This document shows, in pieces, positions 2,857 to 37,750 of a stretch of DNA of 37,750 nt. The notes under the pieces were generated by a model. The model saw only the letters and a program-made list of their open reading frames with translations. It did no database searches and had not been told where the DNA came from. How positions within the stretch are numbered: the stretch's first letter is position 1; every line of letters starts with the position of its first letter. The DNA comes from Candidatus Onthousia faecavium (lineage in GTDB: Bacteria; Bacillota_I; Bacilli_A; RF39; UBA660), in contig DVIS01000027.1 of NCBI GenBank assembly GCA_018711135.1, positions 1 to 37,750 of the forward strand. The letters run 5' to 3'. A program made the translations under genes and the position numbers.

Positions 2857-3078
2857 ATGAGATTTAAAGGCAATAAACATAGTTTCTTTTGTAGATGTAA
2901 TTTTTGTAAACAAAAAAGAAGAAATAATATCTTCTATTTAGGGGCTTTACTGTCTTTAGTAGTAATTATTTGTTATCAAGCTATTATTTTACTAATTGTC
3001 GTTACAAGATTTAATGCTCTTCTTCTTTTATTAGAACTAATTTTATTTATTATGTTGGTGATTTTCTTGATTATATGA
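2857..3078 (+). CDS. Small Cys-containing two-helix membrane protein, unknown function
   Basis: 73 residues from ATG 2857, which has the extended Shine-Dalgarno AGGTGAT at the right distance; the GTG at 2848 is part of that site, not a start. The basic N-terminus has the Cys motif CRCNFC (about residues 12-17) followed by KQKRR, then two hydrophobic segments (about 26-48 and 53-73) reaching the C-terminus. TATAAT at 2840-2845 lies close to the start, so the 5' leader may be very short. It is one of only two plus-strand genes here, transcribed away from perR, and its end runs 36 nt into the end of the ysxE-like gene. I do not recognise the family; the charge pattern suggests a cytoplasmic N-terminus. 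Confidence 0.6.
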   Translation: MRFKGNKHSFFCRCNFCKQKRRNNIFYLGALLSLVVIICYQAIILLIVVTRFNALLLLLELILFIMLVIFLII

Positions 3079-3924
3079 GACAAAATCACTTGTAAGTTTT
3101 AATTTATCAAAAAAAGTGACTAGTTCCCCACATTTATCTAAAGATGAAGGATAAATATCTATTTTTTCTGGAATAACAAGATTGATAATTAAATATAACA
3201 TTTCTTCTTCTTTATACTGATATTTGTGTTGATAAAATCTAAAATTACTTCTCATATCTGTATCTTGGTAATTTTTATGATAAAAGGAAATAAAGTCTTC
3301 ACTAACTGCACCTAAATGAGCATTTTCAAGACTAATTAGGTATCCTTCATCGTTATTAGTAACTAAAAAGTGATCTAACTCTAATTTACCATGACAATAG
3401 ACAAGACGTTCTGTCTTTTTCTCTTTAACAAGGCTATACCACTTTTCTAAAACATGTTTTGCATAATTTAAAGCTTGATAAATAATTGAAGAATTACGTA
3501 TAAATAAGTATTCACTAGGAGCCATATAAACCTTACTTTCAACGACATCTTGTAATGTATAATAGTAATTTTCTAAATAAATTATTCTCTCTTTATAAGT
3601 ATCATACTCTTCTTTTATTTTATCTTTATCTAACTCTTTATATGTAGTTGTCTTATTTTCTAAAAGGCTAAGAACATACATTAATCTTTTTGCTTTTTCA
3701 TCTTTATCGAGCTTTAATGATTCCAAATAATCAAAGTACAAGTCATTTTCTTTAATTTCTAAAGGTCGTAAATAGTTATTAAAACCATGATCATCTAAAT
3801 AGTGATAAATATCTAAAATATCATATCTTTTTTTCTTTTTAACCACTATTTTTCTTTTATCATCATAATTTATTACTTTTACACTTTTAACATAACTATA
3901 CTTAGTTATTTTCTTTTCATCCAT
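3043..3924 (-). CDS. YsxE/CotS-like kinase-fold spore coat protein
   Basis: 293 residues. In Bacillus, ysxE follows spoVID and encodes a coat-associated protein of the aminoglycoside phosphotransferase-like CotS family. Here the same neighbour relation holds: the start (ATG 3924) overlaps the end of the spoVID-like gene by 8 nt with only a weak ribosome site of its own, so coupling is likely. The centre has LVYCHGKLELDHFLV (about 184-198), matching the catalytic-loop region of the fold, but the order is HGKLELD instead of the usual HGDxxxxN, and a DFG-like Asp is not clear (SLENAHLG). It may therefore be a pseudokinase. Function is taken mainly from position plus fold. Confidence 0.6.
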   Translation of the reverse strand: MDEKKITKYSYVKSVKVINYDDKRKIVVKKKKRYDILDIYHYLDDHGFNNYLRPLEIKENDLYFDYLESLKLDKDEKAKRLMYVLSLLENKTTTYKELDKDKIKEEYDTYKERIIYLENYYYTLQDVVESKVYMAPSEYLFIRNSSIIYQALNYAKHVLEKWYSLVKEKKTERLVYCHGKLELDHFLVTNNDEGYLISLENAHLGAVSEDFISFYHKNYQDTDMRSNFRFYQHKYQYKEEEMLYLIINLVIPEKIDIYPSSLDKCGELVTFFDKLKLTSDFVSYNQENHQHNK

Positions 3925-4747
3925 CTGTTTCTACTGAGGTTGGAATAATTAATTTGCTTCCTACCTTAAGATTATCTAGATCATTATACTCGTGTAGAGC
4001 TTCTCTTGTGGTTTTATACTTTTGAATAACATCATCGATATTATCATTTTCTCTTAAAATATAGATAGAATATGTCGCATATGTTTCTTTAGTATTAGCA
4101 AAAGCGGAAAAAATAGAATCCATGACCTCATTATTATCTTGTTTTTCTTTAACAGTCGTATTGGTATTTTCTTTTGACACTTTTTCTTCACCACCTATAT
4201 TTATATCAAGAGAATTTAAAAGTTCATCTTGGGTTTGATTACTAGTTTCTAAAACCTCTATTTCTTCTTGTTCATTATTCATTTCTTCTCTAATTGAATC
4301 ATTTTCTATTTTTTCATTTTTTTCTTCTTTAAAATCTTCTAACTCTATATTATTTTTTTCTTCACTTTTTTCATCATTAGCATTTTTTTCCGTATTGTTT
4401 TCTTCTTCAACTGATATTTCTATCTTTTCTAGTCCTTCTATCAACAACTCTATATTTAGTACTAAAGTTTCTTCGTTAACTACCTTATAAGTAAAATTAT
4501 TAATTGTTACATTTCTCTTAGTTTCTTCTAAAGGTGTTGTTAGCATAATTTCTACGGGTATTTTATAATTAAATTCTTCTTCAATAGTGCTAGCTTCCGT
4601 CATTTTATAAGTACCACTAATTATTAAGTTTCCTTCTATCTCATTATCGTTTATAAATGTTAATTCTTGTTCAAGAGCGATACTGGTAATTTCCCCTATC
4701 ATGGTCTTAAAAGTTATTTCTTTTTCTAATGACATAACCTTTCGCAT
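3917..4747 (-). CDS. spoVID: SpoVID-like spore coat morphogenetic protein with LysM domain
   Basis: 276 residues in three parts. The N-terminal beta-rich domain (about 1-115) has FKTMIGEITSIALEQ and EGNLIISGTYKMTEAS, typical of SpoVID. A very acidic low-complexity linker (about 116-220) is full of Glu, Asn and Lys. The C-terminus (about 228-270) is a LysM motif (YILRENDNIDDVIQKYKTT ... LKVGSKLIIP). SpoVID guides encasement of the forespore by coat proteins; LysM contacts peptidoglycan or its precursor lipid II. Start ATG 4747 has AGGAGG 8 nt upstream. A TATACAAT (4773-4780, minus strand) resembles a sigma-E -10, but no well-spaced -35 is visible. B. subtilis SpoVID is much longer, so this is a compact version. 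Confidence 0.75.
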   Translation of the reverse strand: MRKVMSLEKEITFKTMIGEITSIALEQELTFINDNEIEGNLIISGTYKMTEASTIEEEFNYKIPVEIMLTTPLEETKRNVTINNFTYKVVNEETLVLNIELLIEGLEKIEISVEEENNTEKNANDEKSEEKNNIELEDFKEEKNEKIENDSIREEMNNEQEEIEVLETSNQTQDELLNSLDINIGGEEKVSKENTNTTVKEKQDNNEVMDSIFSAFANTKETYATYSIYILRENDNIDDVIQKYKTTREALHEYNDLDNLKVGSKLIIPTSVETDG

Positions 4748-4784
4748 TTTATCTTCCTCCTAATTCTAATATATTGTATAGAAA

Positions 4785-4823
4785 AAAGATTATGACCGTT
4801 TTCTAATTTTTGTCATAATCTTT
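4785..4823 (-). terminator. Intrinsic terminator inside the end of the 210-residue gene
   Basis: Perfect 12-bp inverted repeat AAAGATTATGAC / GTCATAATCTTT on the minus strand, followed by T residues. The 5' arm and loop encode the last residues of the gene 4790-5422. It separates the lon unit from spoVID, which must have its own promoter. Confidence 0.75.
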
Positions 4824-5422
4824 TCTTTCTCTTTCTTAGTGTCAAAACTTTGCAAACAGCTTTTTAATTGAAATATGGTATTATCAGAAAGATCATTTTT
4901 ATTATTTTCTAAATCTAATAACATGATATATAGATAGTAAGAAGCAGCAGTATTTTTCTCATAATAATCTTTATATGTATATTTTAAATAATTAGCCGCA
5001 TAAATAATATAAGGACTAGTATCAATAGATGTTGCTTCTTTTTCTTGTAATAACATATTTTCCAAACATACAAGATCAAGGTATTCTTTTCTATCAAAGT
5101 AATAGCCATGTTTAAATCTTTCTCTATCAAGATAAGATGTTACCAAGGCATTTTTAGTTTGAGAATCTAAATTAGCTAAAGAATTTAATTTTTCTAAAGT
5201 TTTTTTATCGTGATTAAAAATAGAAACCATAATTGAAGCTTGAAGAATACTTTTATCAACTAATAAGAATTCTTTTTCTATTTCAATTAATTTATTAAGC
5301 ATTTTGCTCGTCTTGTTAGCCTCGCTATTTAACAAAATAAAATTACTATCAAAAGATGCTAACGTTGCTTTAAATTCACTTATTTTTAATCTTTCTTTTA
5401 TTTTTAAATTTGTTAATTGCAT
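4790..5422 (-). CDS. Protein of unknown function downstream of lon
   Basis: 210 residues, mostly charged and leucine-rich, predicted helical throughout, with no membrane segment, signal peptide or Cys motif that I can see. The N-terminus (KIKERLKISEFKATLASF) and the C-terminal KKEKEKIMTKIRKRS are basic. It overlaps the end of lon by 10 nt, so it is made from the lon message, and it ends in a terminator. In Bacillus the gene after lon is the GTPase ysxC; this protein has no P-loop, so it is not that. A role as Lon partner or adaptor is possible only by position. No family recognised. Confidence 0.7.
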   Translation of the reverse strand: MQLTNLKIKERLKISEFKATLASFDSNFILLNSEANKTSKMLNKLIEIEKEFLLVDKSILQASIMVSIFNHDKKTLEKLNSLANLDSQTKNALVTSYLDRERFKHGYYFDRKEYLDLVCLENMLLQEKEATSIDTSPYIIYAANYLKYTYKDYYEKNTAASYYLYIMLLDLENNKNDLSDNTIFQLKSCLQSFDTKKEKEKIMTKIRKRS

Positions 5423-7731
5423 ACTACCTCTTTTTCTTTAAATAATTTACTATAAACATCTTGATAATTATTTACAAAGATAAATGTTATTTTATCTTTT
5501 ATTTCTTCAGGAATATCTTTAAGATCTACTTTGTTAGGGGTTGGGAGAAATATTGTTGTAATACCTTCTCGGTAAGCACCTAAAACTTTTTCTTTAACTC
5601 CCCCTATTTCAAGAATATCACCTTGAAGAGTAATCTCTCCTGTCATTGCTATCTTAGAAGAAATTTTTGTTCCTGTTAAAGAACTAAGTAAAGCAGTTGT
5701 TAAAGCAATACCGGCACTTGGTCCTTCTTTAGGAATTGCTCCTTCTGGAACGTGGATATGAATATCGTTTTTAAAGATTTCTTTTGTTAATCCAAAAATT
5801 TTAGCATTGGCTTTAATATAACTTAACGCTATTTGGGCTGACTCTTGCATTACCTCGCCTAAGGAACCTGTTAAAAGAAGATTGCTGTTACCTGGATAAT
5901 ATGTTGCTTCAATTGGTAAAGTATCCCCCCCATATGGAGTATAAGCCAAGCCATTAACTACTCCTTTTAAAGAGGTTTGTTTTTTCTCTTTTGCAGTATA
6001 AATTTTCTTATCTAAATAGTTAACTAAGTCTTTACTGTCAATTAAATAAAAAACTTGATCTTGGCCAGTTAACACTTTTTTAACAATTTTTCTAAGTATT
6101 TGTGCTATTAATCGTTCTAAGTTACGTACTCCTGCTTCCTTTGTATAATAGTTAATAATATCAAGAATCGCTTCATCAGTAAATTGAACTTGTAACACGC
6201 TAAGTCCATGTTCATCTAAAGCTTTAGGGATTAAATAATTCTTAGCAATTGCTAGTTTTTCATATTCTGTATAAGAATCTAAATAAATAATTTCTAACCG
6301 ATCTTTTAATTCTAAAGGGATTTGTTCTTCATAATTAGCAGTAGCAATAAACAACACATTGGATAAATCGTATTCTTCATCTAAGTAATGGTCAAAAAAT
6401 CTACTATTTTGCTCTTTATCTAAAACCTCTAATAAACTACTAGCAGGATCTCCCTTAATACTTTTTGTCATTTTATCTAACTCATCAATAACAAAGACGG
6501 GATTAGAACTACCGCATTTTCTAATACCTTCAATAATTCTTCCTGGCATCGCCCCAATATAAGTTCTTCTGTGTCCAACAATTTCGGCTTCATCATTAAC
6601 TCCACCAACTGAGACACTAACAAGGCGTCTATTTAAACTTTTCGCAATACTATAAGCAAGAGAGGTCTTACCAATACCAGGAGGTCCGATTAAGCAAAGA
6701 ATAGGACTTTTATTTAAGGGGGCATTTTGCTTTACAGCAATATACTCTATAATTCTACTTTTTACCTTACTAAGACCAAAGTGGCCTTCATTTAATGTTT
6801 TTTCTATTTCTTTTATATCGGTTATATCTTTAGTTTTATAATCCCATGGTAAACTTAGTAACAACTCTAAATGTTCTCTTAACATGGCAAATTCTGGCGA
6901 ACTAAAATTGGTACTACGATAACGTGCGATCTCATCTTTAATATGAGCTTTAACTTTTGATGAACACTTTATTTTTTTTAATCTATTATTAAATTTATCA
7001 ATTTCTTTGGTCCTACTACTTTCTTCTCCTAGTTCTTCCTTAATAATTTTTAATTTTTCCTGTAAATAATATTTACGTTGATCCTCATCAATATTTTTCC
7101 GAACTTGCATTTCTATTTCTTTTTCTAATTTTGCTAAAGAAAGTTCTTCTTTAAGTTGTCCGGCCAAATTTTTAGCACGTTTTGTAACATCTAATTCATA
7201 AAGGTATTGTTTTTTTACATCAGGACTTAAATTTAGTAAAGAAACAATTAAATCAGTTAATTCATCTAAACTGGTAATAGAGGATATTTCTGCTAACATC
7301 GCATTACTAACTGAGGCTACCTCGCTAACATATTTTTCATAATTACGATAAAGCATATCTAAGTATATTCTTTCTTCTTTTGTAGAAAGAGGTTTAACTA
7401 TCACATCCTCATAAGTAGCATAAAAAATATCTTTATTTTCTTCATAATTTTCAATAATAACACGCTTTATTCCTGCAATACTATAGCGAACCTTAGAATT
7501 TGGAATATTTAGTTTTAAAGTTAAAGTAGCTAAAAGACCAACATTAGGAAATTCTGTAACATCATCTTTACTAACATCATCAAGGGAATGTATAATTATA
7601 AGTTCTTTTGATTGACTCTTCTCTAGCATATCTAACAATTCCTGCTCTTTATAATTAGTAGTTTCACTACGATATTCCGTATTAGGAAACAAAATACCAT
7701 TATTAATGATTAAAACAGGTAATTTAGACAT
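5413..7731 (-). CDS. lon: ATP-dependent protease Lon
   Basis: 772 residues, full length for a bacterial LonA. The N-terminal substrate-binding domain (1-200) and coiled region (200-300) are followed by the AAA+ module with Walker A GPPGIGKTS (about 348), Walker B FVIDELDK (about 415), and a C-terminal protease domain with the catalytic Ser in PKEGPSAG (about 671) and Lys in GGVKEK. It degrades misfolded and regulatory proteins in the cytoplasm. ATG 7731 follows a G-rich site GGGGGGATAAAA. It has its own promoter (7757-7784) behind the pilin terminator, and is followed by an overlapping gene of unknown function. No HrcA/CIRCE or CtsR-type repeat is evident in the short upstream gap. Confidence 0.97.
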   Translation of the reverse strand: MSKLPVLIINNGILFPNTEYRSETTNYKEQELLDMLEKSQSKELIIIHSLDDVSKDDVTEFPNVGLLATLTLKLNIPNSKVRYSIAGIKRVIIENYEENKDIFYATYEDVIVKPLSTKEERIYLDMLYRNYEKYVSEVASVSNAMLAEISSITSLDELTDLIVSLLNLSPDVKKQYLYELDVTKRAKNLAGQLKEELSLAKLEKEIEMQVRKNIDEDQRKYYLQEKLKIIKEELGEESSRTKEIDKFNNRLKKIKCSSKVKAHIKDEIARYRSTNFSSPEFAMLREHLELLLSLPWDYKTKDITDIKEIEKTLNEGHFGLSKVKSRIIEYIAVKQNAPLNKSPILCLIGPPGIGKTSLAYSIAKSLNRRLVSVSVGGVNDEAEIVGHRRTYIGAMPGRIIEGIRKCGSSNPVFVIDELDKMTKSIKGDPASSLLEVLDKEQNSRFFDHYLDEEYDLSNVLFIATANYEEQIPLELKDRLEIIYLDSYTEYEKLAIAKNYLIPKALDEHGLSVLQVQFTDEAILDIINYYTKEAGVRNLERLIAQILRKIVKKVLTGQDQVFYLIDSKDLVNYLDKKIYTAKEKKQTSLKGVVNGLAYTPYGGDTLPIEATYYPGNSNLLLTGSLGEVMQESAQIALSYIKANAKIFGLTKEIFKNDIHIHVPEGAIPKEGPSAGIALTTALLSSLTGTKISSKIAMTGEITLQGDILEIGGVKEKVLGAYREGITTIFLPTPNKVDLKDIPEEIKDKITFIFVNNYQDVYSKLFKEKEVVCN

Positions 7732-7756
7732 TTTTATCCCCCCAAAACTAATAAAT

Positions 7757-7784
7757 ATTATATCGTAATTTCAAAATTTTACAA
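7757..7784 (-). promoter_or_regulatory. Promoter of lon
   Basis: TTGTAA (7779-7784) and TATAAT (7757-7762) on the minus strand with 16 bp spacing, 26 nt or so upstream of the lon start. Confidence 0.65.
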
Positions 7785-7788
7785 TAGA

Positions 7789-7814
7789 AAAAGAACAAGT
7801 TTTTTTGTTCTTTT
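7789..7814. terminator. Bidirectional terminator after the first prepilin gene
   Basis: Perfect 10-bp inverted repeat AAAAGAACAA / TTGTTCTTTT with a 6-nt loop and T-rich 3' side on both strands. It ends the pilin transcript directly before the lon promoter. Confidence 0.85.
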
Positions 7815-7822
7815 CTTTGCTA

Positions 7823-8419
7823 TTAACCAATAATTTGAATCAAACTACATGTACCATCAGCAGTTCCAGCAACTCCACCTTTATAAAGATTCAATGTTTC
7901 AGGTGATGCTTCACTAACACTCGCAGGCAAAGTTTGATAACTACCACTTGGTTTTGGAGCAGTTGTAACATCTCTTAGAATAACATTGTTTCTTTCAACA
8001 TCAGCTTCACGCATTAATCCAAAGCCATTACCTTGTTCATCAACCATTTGGACATAATATTCATACTTATCATCTTCTGATGAACCAGCAGCAGTTACAT
8101 TTCTAATAACAACATAACTATCATTATCTTCATATGCCCGACCAAATGGACTATCTTCAGAACCACTTTCTAGGGGAATTGAACTAGTTCTAACAGCAAT
8201 ACATTGCCCACGTCCTATTTCTGGATAATCACCATTAACAAAGCTTAATCTTGCAGAAGCTGCATATGATTGAGCTGTTGTAATAAATGTATCCTTTCTA
8301 GCATTAGTAATATAACTAGACATAGCTGTAATAGCTAAAGTCATCAAGATAGCTAAGATGATTATTACTGCTAACAATTCGATTAAAGTAAAACCTCTTC
8401 TATTCATTTTTCTTTTCAT
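7823..8419 (-). CDS. Type IV prepilin-like protein
   Basis: 198 residues from ATG 8419, chosen because GGAGGT stands 8 nt upstream; upstream start codons lack a ribosome site. MKRKMNRRG ends the class III leader, and FTLIELLAVIIILAIL is the mature N-terminal helix with Glu at +5. The leader is cut and the Phe methylated by a PilD/ComC-type peptidase, which is not in the window. The globular part has two Cys (in RGQCIAVR and DGTCSLIQ near the C-terminus) that could form a disulfide. It is a tandem paralogue of the next gene upstream: both share a Cys-V, SYVVI and GxxxxxR framework. No pilus ATPase or platform gene is nearby, so whether it is a major or minor pilin is unclear. Confidence 0.9.
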   Translation of the reverse strand: MKRKMNRRGFTLIELLAVIIILAILMTLAITAMSSYITNARKDTFITTAQSYAASARLSFVNGDYPEIGRGQCIAVRTSSIPLESGSEDSPFGRAYEDNDSYVVIRNVTAAGSSEDDKYEYYVQMVDEQGNGFGLMREADVERNNVILRDVTTAPKPSGSYQTLPASVSEASPETLNLYKGGVAGTADGTCSLIQIIG

Positions 8420-17981: not shown

Positions 17982-18998
17982 TTAATTTAACTCTAAACTT
18001 TTATTTATTCCTACAGCAAGTAATTTACTTAACTGTTCAATCACATAATCTATTTCTTTAGGTGTTACTAATAAATTATATCCTAAAGGAGTTAACACTT
18101 CACTTATTAAAGTCTTAATTTCTTCATCGTTAAGATTACCTATCAAACCCATAACCTCTTTTTTTTCCTCTTTACTTAATGTCTTATCGTGATTTTTATA
18201 ATTACGATTTTCTGGTAAGACTAGTTTTAAAGCTTTATTATTGGCATTTTCTTTTTCATAACTAAAATGTCTAAACATATAATTAATCGTATTACTAACT
18301 ATCGTTGTCGCATCAACTACAGTTGGTACCCCAATAGCGATAACTGGAATATTAAGTGAAGATTCATTAATAGCAAAGCGATTATTTAAAAGCCCACTCC
18401 CAGGAGTAATACCTGTATTAGTTATCTGAATAGTTTTATTAATTCTCTCTAAACTAGAAGCTGCTAAAGCATCTATAACAATTAAGAAATCTGGTTTTGT
18501 CTTTTCTATAACTCCTTCAATTATTTCTTTAGTTTCAATTCCCGTTGTCCCCATAACTCCAGGACTAAGTGATGATATTACTCGGTATTTCTCATCTAAA
18601 GCAAGTCCTACCTCTATTATTTGTCTTGTTATTTTAACGCCTTCAACAGTAAGTGGACCTAAAGCATCGGGAGTAGCCTTTCTGTTACCTAAGCCTACAA
18701 TTAAGCATGAATAACTATTTTTTACCTCTGTAAGTTTTAACATCTCTTTAAGTTCTCTAATCAAGACATCCAACACCTTATTAAAGTTTCCTTCATCTGT
18801 AACATCATCAAAGTAAATAGTTTTATAAACTCCCGCCTCTTTCTCTATTATTTTTGCATCATCTGATGATAATGTTACAGTTTCTACTTTAATATTATTA
18901 TAACTTTTAACCTCTTTCTTTATATTATTATTACTATCTATATGTTCACTTATTAAATCTGTTCTAAGTCTATATTTATTTAAATCTATCTCATGCAT
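17982..18998 (-). CDS. gpr: Germination protease GPR
   Basis: 338 residues from ATG 18998, which has GGTGAT upstream; a longer reading frame from 19025 lacks a ribosome site. GPR degrades small acid-soluble spore proteins early in germination and is made as a zymogen with a short N-terminal pro-sequence. Family blocks are visible: LIVGLGNRKATPDALGPL, VMGTTGIETKEII, IDALAASSLERINKTIQ, TGITPGSGLLNNR and IAIGVPTVVDATTI. The upstream CATACTA (19071-19077, minus strand) fits a sigma-G -10, but no matching -35 is at the right distance. It is divergent from rpsT and heads the gpr-spoIIP-yqxA unit. Confidence 0.95.
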   Translation of the reverse strand: MHEIDLNKYRLRTDLISEHIDSNNNIKKEVKSYNNIKVETVTLSSDDAKIIEKEAGVYKTIYFDDVTDEGNFNKVLDVLIRELKEMLKLTEVKNSYSCLIVGLGNRKATPDALGPLTVEGVKITRQIIEVGLALDEKYRVISSLSPGVMGTTGIETKEIIEGVIEKTKPDFLIVIDALAASSLERINKTIQITNTGITPGSGLLNNRFAINESSLNIPVIAIGVPTVVDATTIVSNTINYMFRHFSYEKENANNKALKLVLPENRNYKNHDKTLSKEEKKEVMGLIGNLNDEEIKTLISEVLTPLGYNLLVTPKEIDYVIEQLSKLLAVGINKSLELN

Positions 18999-19041
18999 AT
19001 TAATCACCAGTAATATTGTTGACAAGTTTTTAGAAAAATAT

Positions 19042-19408: not shown

Positions 19409-20674
19409 TTATCCTAATGTCAGAACGAAAGGATCTGTTTTAGTTCCTGTTCCTGTTACTATTTGTACGTTAGATTTTAGATTTAGTGATGGCCGCACAC
19501 CGAAAGCATTGGTCGAACTATTACCGATCACACTGCCGTTGTAGTGCACCCACCGAACGCTCGACCAAGAATAAGGCGTGATACACCACCAATAAAGTCC
19601 ATTATTTAAATAGCCATTGCTATAAGTTGTTCCACTATAACTCATTGTATATTCATAAATATTTAATAAACCTACTGGATCTGTTACCATTGTTGTTTCA
19701 GCTGGCTTCGTTGTAGCAGTTGTCTCTGTAGCATTCCACACACTATCTAACTTAATAAAATTCTCATAATCTCTTAAATTTCCTAAGAAACCATCTACAC
19801 TTGTATCATTCAACCATTCTTCCATATAACTACCTTCAAAAGCAGTATTAGCAAATGCATTATATGGAATTATACTTATATTCCACTGAGTTACTAATTT
19901 AACACTATTATCATCTGGATCTATTGACACTGCTCTCCATAATTTACCACTATACCAGATATAGTTATTTGGATCTTCCCCTGTTATAAATGTTTGATCT
20001 GGATCTGTTGTATTTATTGCTCCATTTTCTCCTACTCCTGCTAGTAATTTTTCAGCAGCAGTCGGTAATATATCTTCAGGATTACCATCTTTACCATAAA
20101 CGTTTATCTTGACACTAAACTCTAAACCTCCTCCGTCTCCTTGAGGATTATATTCTTCTGTTACATACATTCTAAGACGATAGTTATTAGTTTCACTTGA
20201 ATTCATACTACTAGCATATAAACTCATTTCTCCTGATGGTCTTCCGGCTTCACTTTCTTCATTATATGTCTCTGGACTCATTAACTCTTCTTCTGTACCA
20301 TCCTCAGTTATTCTTGTTAAGTATAACTTAATATTAGACCCATCTATCTTTCTATCACTTGTAGTAACATCTTTAGCACTTATTTCATAGTTAATATTAA
20401 CATTACCAGTTATGCTACTTGAAATAGTAAAATCAAAGTACTCTCCTTCTTTTAATCTTACTGTACCTGTTTTATCTGTTGTTGGTAGTGCTCCATCCAT
20501 CGTAATGATATTATCACTTTCGGTATAAGTCATCGTAATTGCACCTGTTGTTATACTATTAACAGTCTGACCTGTTCCTGTATAACTGAATGCGGCATAA
20601 CTTACTCCTATTACTGCTACAATCATTATCAATATTAAACCCAAAACTATTACTTTTTCTTTCTTTTTCTCCAT
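19409..20674 (-). CDS. TasA-like surface protein with C-terminal FGE/C-type-lectin-like domain and a variable block
   Basis: 421 residues. N-terminal signal/membrane segment (about 8-28, ending SYAAFSYTG) and a TasA/camelysin-like beta domain (about 30-185: VNSITTGAITMTYTES, KEGEYFDFTI, NVNINYEISA). A second domain (about 215-421) has NYIWYSGKLWRAVSI, MEEWLNDTSVDGFLGNL, WWCITPYSWSSVRWV and GVRPSLNLKSNVQIV, like the DUF6273/formylglycine-generating-enzyme or C-type-lectin fold used by many gut Firmicutes. Residues 369-394 are a GC-rich, hypervariable block (see 19493-19570). Probably exported and wall-displayed for binding; the ligand is unknown. ATG 20674 has GAGGAG upstream. It has a repeated leader with terminator and palindrome, and paralogues at both window ends. 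No SipW-like peptidase is present here. Confidence 0.8.
   Translation of the reverse strand: MEKKKEKVIVLGLILIMIVAVIGVSYAAFSYTGTGQTVNSITTGAITMTYTESDNIITMDGALPTTDKTGTVRLKEGEYFDFTISSSITGNVNINYEISAKDVTTSDRKIDGSNIKLYLTRITEDGTEEELMSPETYNEESEAGRPSGEMSLYASSMNSSETNNYRLRMYVTEEYNPQGDGGGLEFSVKINVYGKDGNPEDILPTAAEKLLAGVGENGAINTTDPDQTFITGEDPNNYIWYSGKLWRAVSIDPDDNSVKLVTQWNISIIPYNAFANTAFEGSYMEEWLNDTSVDGFLGNLRDYENFIKLDSVWNATETTATTKPAETTMVTDPVGLLNIYEYTMSYSGTTYSNGYLNNGLYWWCITPYSWSSVRWVHYNGSVIGNSSTNAFGVRPSLNLKSNVQIVTGTGTKTDPFVLTLG
19493..19570 (-). other. Hypervariable 26-codon block (variable region A)
   Basis: Codons for residues 369-394. By hand count 43 of 78 bases are G or C and none of the 26 third codon positions is A, while flanking codons are A/T-ending. 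Compared with block B (37400-37477) the length is equal, a framework of V, R, V, Y, G, N, S, A is shared, and about half the positions differ (W/S, S/Y, W/N, H/Y, N/D, S/I, I/Y, G/Y, F/N). The 3' flank is nearly identical in both. This is the pattern of a diversified ligand-binding surface. Confidence 0.65.
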
Positions 20675-37199: not shown

Positions 37200-37277
37200 C
37201 CTTAGATATTTACTTTTAATACTCTAATCTTATTTAATGTTAAAGTTGCTATTCACATACATCATTAATTTAGTCAA

Positions 37278-37305
37278 CAGTCTAGGTAATACATTCCCTA
37301 GACTG
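37278..37305. repeat. Hairpin after the right-end gene
   Basis: Perfect 9-bp inverted repeat CAGTCTAGG / CCTAGACTG with a 10-nt loop, starting 8 nt past the stop codon. No T run on either strand, so it may protect the mRNA 3' end or bind a protein. Confidence 0.5.
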
Positions 37306-37312
37306 ATGACAT

Positions 37313-37750
37313 CTAACTTACTAACTGTAACTCGAACGGCGAATTCAAAGTTCCATCACCATTTACAATTTGCACGTTAGATTTTAGATTTATGGATGGC
37401 CGCACGCCATTCGCGCTCGAAGGACTATTGTAGTACGCGATGCCATCGTAGTAGACATTGCGCACGTAAGACGAAGAATATGGTGTTAAAAACCAATAAT
37501 TCGTATTATTACCATATCTATCAAATTGTCCTGTCATTAATTCGCCCATTCTCAAAAGTCCTACTTTGGCTGTCGTTACACTTGATGTTAGAATGTTGTC
37601 TGTTTCATTTGTATACTTTGCTAATTTATAACTTGCTCCACTACCGACTGTTCCCAAGTACCATGTTGTACTATCTTCTAGCATTGCTATATCTTCATTT
37701 GTCAAATATCCATTACTTGTATTCAAATAGTCATTATTCAAAAATGCTCC
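37313..37750 (-). CDS. TasA/lectin-like surface protein, C-terminal fragment (runs off the right end)
   Basis: 146 codons open to the window edge; the frame continues upstream of the apparent TTG start, so the start is outside. It matches the C-terminal domain of 19409-20674: TSNGYLTNEDIAMLED, YWFLTPYSSSYVRNV, GVRPSINLKSNVQIV and a final GDGTLNSPFELQ. The block at 37400-37477 is the second variable region. The upstream third (SSVTTAKVGLLRMGELM) is the DUF6273-like part. Its N-terminus, likely a TasA-type signal as in the paralogues, cannot be seen. It sits next to the surface-glycan exporter genes but has its own terminator. Confidence 0.8.
   Translation of the reverse strand, partial: GAFLNNDYLNTSNGYLTNEDIAMLEDSTTWYLGTVGSGASYKLAKYTNETDNILTSSVTTAKVGLLRMGELMTGQFDRYGNNTNYWFLTPYSSSYVRNVYYDGIAYYNSPSSANGVRPSINLKSNVQIVNGDGTLNSPFELQLVS
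37400..37477 (-). other. Hypervariable 26-codon block (variable region B)
   Basis: Equal in length to block A (19493-19570), 42 of 78 bases G or C, no A at any third codon position. It encodes SSSYVRNVYYDGIAYY and then NSPSSANGVR. It is followed by CCATC and an almost identical 3' flank (TAAATCTAAAATCTAACGT) as in block A. Confidence 0.65.

Follow-up and report, generated by a model that had tools for sequence, protein, structure and literature searches.

We found that the short block at 19493-19570 of the window (the whole 37,750-nucleotide stretch of Candidatus Onthousia faecavium DNA under analysis) is, judged from its sequence, very probably the variable region (VR) of a remote target of a cellular diversity-generating retroelement (DGR). 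That the gene carrying this block is the product of a DGR is nearly certain. The gene has been diversified in the past; its present activity is unproven, because no template matching all of the non-A bases of the block was found. The window comprises positions 1-37750 of contig C4 in a 55-contig, 1.28-Mb draft genome (G000) that is 92% complete, and a second copy of the target gene is therefore truncated by the contig end (Table 1).

The adenine-restricted mismatches described below, taken together with what is known of DGRs, suggest how the block would have arisen. Reverse transcription of the RNA of a template repeat (TR) would introduce errors at adenines, and the resulting cDNA would take the place of the VR. 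The AAY codons of the TR would keep the framework residues fixed and would avoid stops. The gene in the window would thus be a target located away from any cassette.

Table 1. Positions of the target genes and of the DGR-related features discussed in the text
Feature	Location	Strand	Description	Basis
Remote DGR target gene	19409..20674	(-)	421 aa	ORF and DUF6273 match
VR block of the window gene	19493..19570	(-)	residues 369-394 (SWSSVRWVHYNGSVIGNSSTNAFGVR)	register, GC and wobble statistics
Variable codons of that block	residues 372, 375, 377-379, 381, 383-385, 389, 391		n=11	
Germination protease gene	window 17982-19025		spore-specific	
Second target gene	37313..37741	(-)	5' part cut by contig end; second-domain-type VR domain	ORF, translation
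VR block of the second target gene	37400..37477	(-)	SSSYVRNVYYDGIAYYNSPSSANGVR	mismatch pattern against C6 paralogue
Hairpin just past the stop of the second target gene	37273..37310	(-)	14-bp stem	sequence; covarying stem, 10 loci
DGR-type reverse transcriptase	C1:2772-3719		intact, 316 aa	motifs IGNYTSQ, YMDD
Second DGR	L070 (contig C30 of the same genome) 2900-8081		RT, clear Avd, two TRs of NNGSFRLV type	
Palindrome TTATAAGACATGTCTTATAA, then tyrosine recombinase genes	L082 3948-3967; L242 (G034:C8); L256-L261			

The variable block and its gene

The first-pass annotation had described a block of about 55% GC in an AT-rich gene, with no A at its wobble positions and with differences from its paralogue at about half of its residues, and this description was borne out; the sole amendment concerns the second copy, which the contig end truncates. 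The GC content is 55.1% in the block and 32.7% over the remainder of the gene. Adenine occupies none of the 26 third codon positions of the block as against 168 of 396 in the rest of the gene (Fisher p=1.3e-6), and G or C occupies 17/26 as against 68/396 (p=2.4e-7). Further, the block and its counterpart in the second copy share 13 of their 26 residues. Both the GC-rich appearance of the block and its lack of wobble A can be put down to the TR, which has A mostly in positions 1 and 2 of its AAY codons.

Searched as DNA at E<=1e-6 against the 35 genomes of the genus, the block matched only itself. When the window protein is compared with two orthologues from a sister species (G022), identity outside the block is 82-85%, and the residue is kept at 1-3 of the 11 template-variable positions. 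Across the family, 13 template repeats and some 100 VRs are in register with the block, and about a dozen VRs of the GVRP type in the genome of the window share this register. Relative to the TR consensus, the block is changed at 11 of 23 A columns and at 2 of 21 others in codon positions 1 and 2 (p=0.006), and it differs at 13 of 23 non-A wobble positions. The best single template mismatches the VR at 12 of 24 A and 14 of 49 non-A positions (p=0.06); a template agreeing with it at all non-A positions was not found in the 92%-complete draft or in the related genomes.

The encoded protein begins with a membrane or signal helix, continues with an N-terminal region that appears beta-rich in a low-confidence model, and closes with a single DUF6273 domain that ends in the VR. 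The match to DUF6273 (PF19789) scores 30.2 bits, above the curated cut-off of 23.5, and such a match is present in 9 of 15 aligned family members. The label “TasA”, which the first-pass annotation had attached to the protein, has to be dropped: no TasA-type match was returned for the window protein from Pfam or NCBIfam, or for its relatives from Pfam. The VR domain may have a C-type-lectin fold, but AlphaFold models built from the single sequence and from 18 sequences were too poor to bear on this (mean pLDDT 39.8 and 45.5, respectively), and a sequence search of the PDB with the target profile gave no real match. The sequence predicts an exported protein, and its role may be that of a variable protein for binding or adhesion.

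The gene is flanked by genes for a germination protease (Pfam Peptidase_A25) and an ABC-2 transporter, and we read an ORF between these housekeeping neighbors as ribosomal protein S20. We therefore take the context of the gene to be chromosomal, and not a prophage. The germination protease, a spore-specific enzyme, is encoded here in a genome reduced to 1.28 Mb.

Intact cassettes in related genomes

Intact cassettes occur in related Candidatus Onthousia genomes, with the order target gene (~640 aa), hairpin, non-coding TR, Avd-like gene and reverse transcriptase (RT). Each target has two domains of the DUF6273 kind, each with a VR at its end, and both are diversified; VR1 lies ~825 nt and VR2 ~187 nt upstream of the TR. 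Across 25 cassette VR/TR pairs representing 13 templates, mismatches fall on 290 of 581 template adenines and on 122 of 1244 non-A positions (p=5e-77). In the best single cassettes, the A and non-A mismatches are 14/23 and 0/53, 13/24 and 0/52, and 13/27 and 0/46. Opposite the template adenines of the cassette pairs, the VRs carry A 291, G 145, T 109 and C 36 times. Further, the private non-A bases of one template (GGTGTGTC and GGCATGCGG, on contig C20 of G016) recur in its neighboring VR.

The same pattern is found between paralogues in the genome of the window. The copies on C1 and C54 (first domain, C54a) differ at 16 of 23 template-A columns and at none of 44 others (p=2e-10). A 351-nt stretch of the second target gene in the window is near-identical to a copy on C6 outside the VR region, and the two differ at 13 of 23 template-A columns and 1 of 44 others (p=5e-7). 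These comparisons bear on the notion that exchange among paralogues (by recombination or gene conversion) or positive selection alone generated the variation with no retroelement involved. A large paralogous family with common frameworks would provide the material for such exchange, the window gene itself looks recombinant, and a TR-VR chimera exists on C55. However, related copies differ at the template-A columns, with all four bases represented there, and a non-coding template, an RT and an Avd-like protein all exist. The idea is already contradicted by these observations, and we consider it very improbable.

The hairpin that follows the cassette stop codon has a 14-bp stem in which five pairs are changed on both sides among 10 loci; in the stem alignment of these loci, 97.9% of the cells are paired. 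No Rfam family matched the cassettes. The hairpin behind the second target gene of the window is of the kind that precedes the template repeats in intact cassettes. Past it, a short GTATGTGAATAGCAAC at 37245-37265 on the minus strand resembles a decayed template remnant. The first-domain VRs are diversified without a hairpin of their own, and therefore a neighboring hairpin would seem not to be strictly needed for the diversification of a VR.

Several template lineages, distinguishable by their wobble bases, are present side by side across the genus and inside single genomes. The earlier proposal that the two copies in the window derive from different templates is therefore reasonable. In genome G019, two cassettes are intact; their templates differ, and each template matches both VRs of the target in its cassette with 0-1 non-A mismatches. 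Of 21 VRs in the loci sampled from this genome, 19 have the GC-rich wobble, so that at least 19 of its VRs retain the signature. For many copies elsewhere, among them C8 and C24 in the genome of the window and most of the copies sampled in G013, the tested template was not matched or the signature was lost.

Reverse transcriptases and templates in the genome of the window

The first-pass annotation had counted the lack of both an RT and an A-rich near-copy of the block in the genome among the findings that would refute its proposal that the protein is or was a DGR target. Both were found, so that objection falls. An intact DGR-type RT is present on C1, where it is preceded by a 113-aa Avd-like ORF, and four A-rich near-copies of the block, with AAC or AAT at the varying codons, lie outside target genes on C1, C6, C39 and C49. 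The RT and Avd-like genes and these templates, together with the adenine-only pattern in relatives and in paralogues of the same genome, uphold the proposal. The RT matches RVT_1 (82.5 bits) and a phage-RT PHROG (E 9e-70), and its best PDB match is 8ub7 (E 1.7e-18); this entry and its group we take to be the RT complex of the DGR of Bordetella phage BPP-1. The Avd-like protein matches the PHROG “Avd protein of DGR” (E 3.3e-7) and stays under the Pfam and NCBIfam cut-offs. Relatives of the C1 RT also occur in Faecalibacterium phages. A viral origin was considered and rejected: the target has no relative in viral contigs, and the RTs there are only 29-38% identical.

All four TR copies are damaged, and the assembly holds no intact TR. 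The copy on C39 has lost ~18 nt between two AACAACAA runs, the RT of that contig has decayed, and its VRs do not match its TR. The TR on C6 breaks off at a palindrome that is followed by a recombinase gene, that on C49 is cut within the AAC run, and that on C1 has lost its 5' part and stands beside a putative IS element. A plain BLAST search of the short flanks of the RTs of this genome returned no template matching the window block. On C55 (L071, 30-300), the upstream flank of a template continues directly into a VR-like end, which looks like a TR/VR recombinant.

The second DGR of the genome, on C30, is complete in its RT, its Avd and its two TRs, and it might for that reason be thought the source of the window block. 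We rejected it. Its templates encode a different variable motif, of the NNGSFRLV type, and although further copies of it lie on C30, with similar sequences on C9, C14, C54 and C36, none lies in the window. There is hardly any chance that this element wrote the block.

Past and present rewriting of the window gene

The DNA before the VR of the window gene is nearest to a first domain (C54a, 91%), and the DNA after it is nearest to a second domain (C54b, 95%). With a first-domain-like head and a second-domain-like tail, the domain can be read as the remnant of two domains that collapsed into one by recombination, probably through a deletion between the two repeats. C54 need not be the donor of this mosaic. 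The window gene is not followed by a hairpin of the cassette-target type, and neither a hairpin nor a TR was found downstream of it.

Two accounts of its present state, both of which retain a DGR as the origin of the block, have to be weighed. In the first, the block is an old, frozen product: the hairpin was lost in the two-domain collapse, all templates of the strain were broken, and the block is now subject to ordinary evolution. The missing downstream hairpin and TR, and the lack of an intact TR in the assembly, agree with this account, as do the many non-A wobble differences between the block and all known TRs, the mosaic domain, and the existence of family members (C8 and C24) that are devoid of the GC-rich signature. 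Yet the A-free, GC-rich wobble of the block is intact, unlike that of the decayed C8 and C24, in which A occupies 9/24 and 8/24 third positions. Further, first-domain VRs of relatives are diversified with no adjacent hairpin, and 8% of the genome is missing from the assembly. In our estimation, the chances of this account being correct are about even.

In the second, the gene is still being rewritten in trans by the C1 RT from a template that lies in the unassembled part of the genome. The RT and Avd-like genes on C1 are intact, the wobble signature of the block is preserved, and several template lineages coexist per genome in relatives. No such template was seen, however, and the target has no adjacent hairpin; we thus hold continued rewriting to be possible but somewhat doubtful.

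Insertions in the templates

One mode of template damage is seen in several genomes of the genus. A 20-bp palindrome (Table 1) occurs exactly once in each of seven of the 35 Onthousia genomes, always inside a template of the GVRP type. It occupies the same template codon in six of the seven, and the junction differs in G016. In G034 the insert starts with three tyrosine recombinase genes (325, 317 and 413 aa) that overlap by 14 bp and all match Phage_integrase; a second recombinase trio follows, and the template lacks its right half. The palindrome has no match in viral contigs.

The G034 insert fits the recombinase-in-trio (RIT) elements described previously (PMC3414803), with which it shares a flanking palindrome and a run of three tyrosine recombinase genes that overlap one another. 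It differs from them in sitting inside DGR template repeats. The template halves at the palindrome differ between genomes, and both independent events and one old insertion are possible. These facts raise the tentative possibility, one that we would not call probable, that a RIT-like trio has specialized on the DGR template as its insertion site, repeatedly shutting off hypermutation and thereby freezing target families. Such freezing may have reached the window gene. The recombinase insertions offer a natural experiment on the consequences of switching the mutator off.

The target family and its relation to known systems

Every one of the 35 genomes, which measure ~0.9-1.7 Mb, contains the target family. 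At E<=1e-20 the number of matches ranges from 5 to 35 per genome, and not all of these matches are DGR-diversified copies. Contigs C1 and C6 start with sequence that is also found near the window end (37640-37663). Assembly therefore breaks in repeated target genes, and because of this the gene counts from draft genomes probably underestimate the true numbers. Candidatus Onthousia, a gut lineage that is uncultured and has a reduced genome, maintains a genus-wide hypermutation system with several parallel templates. Its products are predicted exported proteins, each with two variable patches, and their families reach 35 homologous matches in a genome. Further, the wobble bases record the last template that wrote each copy, so that past template use can be reconstructed even from draft genomes.

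The DGR of Bordetella phage BPP-1 couples an RT with Avd, mutates specifically at A, has a hairpin after its VR, and serves one target, a phage tail protein, from one template. In the Onthousia cassettes, the hairpin also directly precedes the TR. In the prophage DGRs of Faecalibacterium (PMC11792537), the VR is at the C-terminal end of a DUF6273 domain, as it is here; RTs related to the one on C1 are found in phages of this genus. The Onthousia systems differ from these in that they are chromosomal, their targets have an N-terminal membrane helix, the cassette targets contain two DUF6273 domains per protein, and the remote families are large.

The cellular DGRs of Thiohalocapsa PB-PSB1 have 15 targets, which are NTPase or vWA conflict proteins (PMC10907252; PNAS 2024). 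Like the systems described here, they have more than one DGR locus and template in a genome, act in trans on remote targets, include proteins with tandem VR domains, and have lost templates to mobile elements. The Onthousia targets, by contrast, are predicted exported DUF6273 proteins, of which a genome may have as many as 35 homologous matches. In the cyanobacterial DGRs, 219 orthologues were counted in 21 genomes (~10 per genome), and a C-terminal CLec domain of the targets is grafted to various N-terminal domains (PMC7517822). Dispersed target paralogues and transposases near targets are common to these and the Onthousia systems, and the target domains differ. Thus, DUF6273 variable domains, remote targets, tandem variable domains and template loss to mobile elements are already known for DGRs; what looks new is the size of the two-domain target family and a trio element confined to DGR templates. 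A literature search, which was not exhaustive, gave no report of DGRs under Onthousia, RF39 or related names among its top-ranked hits.

Two further sets of RTs came to light. A target-like family ending in VRPVIN...GFTSGDGTAS sits upstream of other RTs (L188, L191, L235, L238, L196 and L216) that are ~42-43% identical to the C1 RT, and this family with its RTs may represent a DGR lineage that runs in parallel within the group. Contig C20 of the window genome (L003) encodes a third RT, of another kind (QG..YRDD, 510 aa), which adjoins a resolvase-like recombinase gene.
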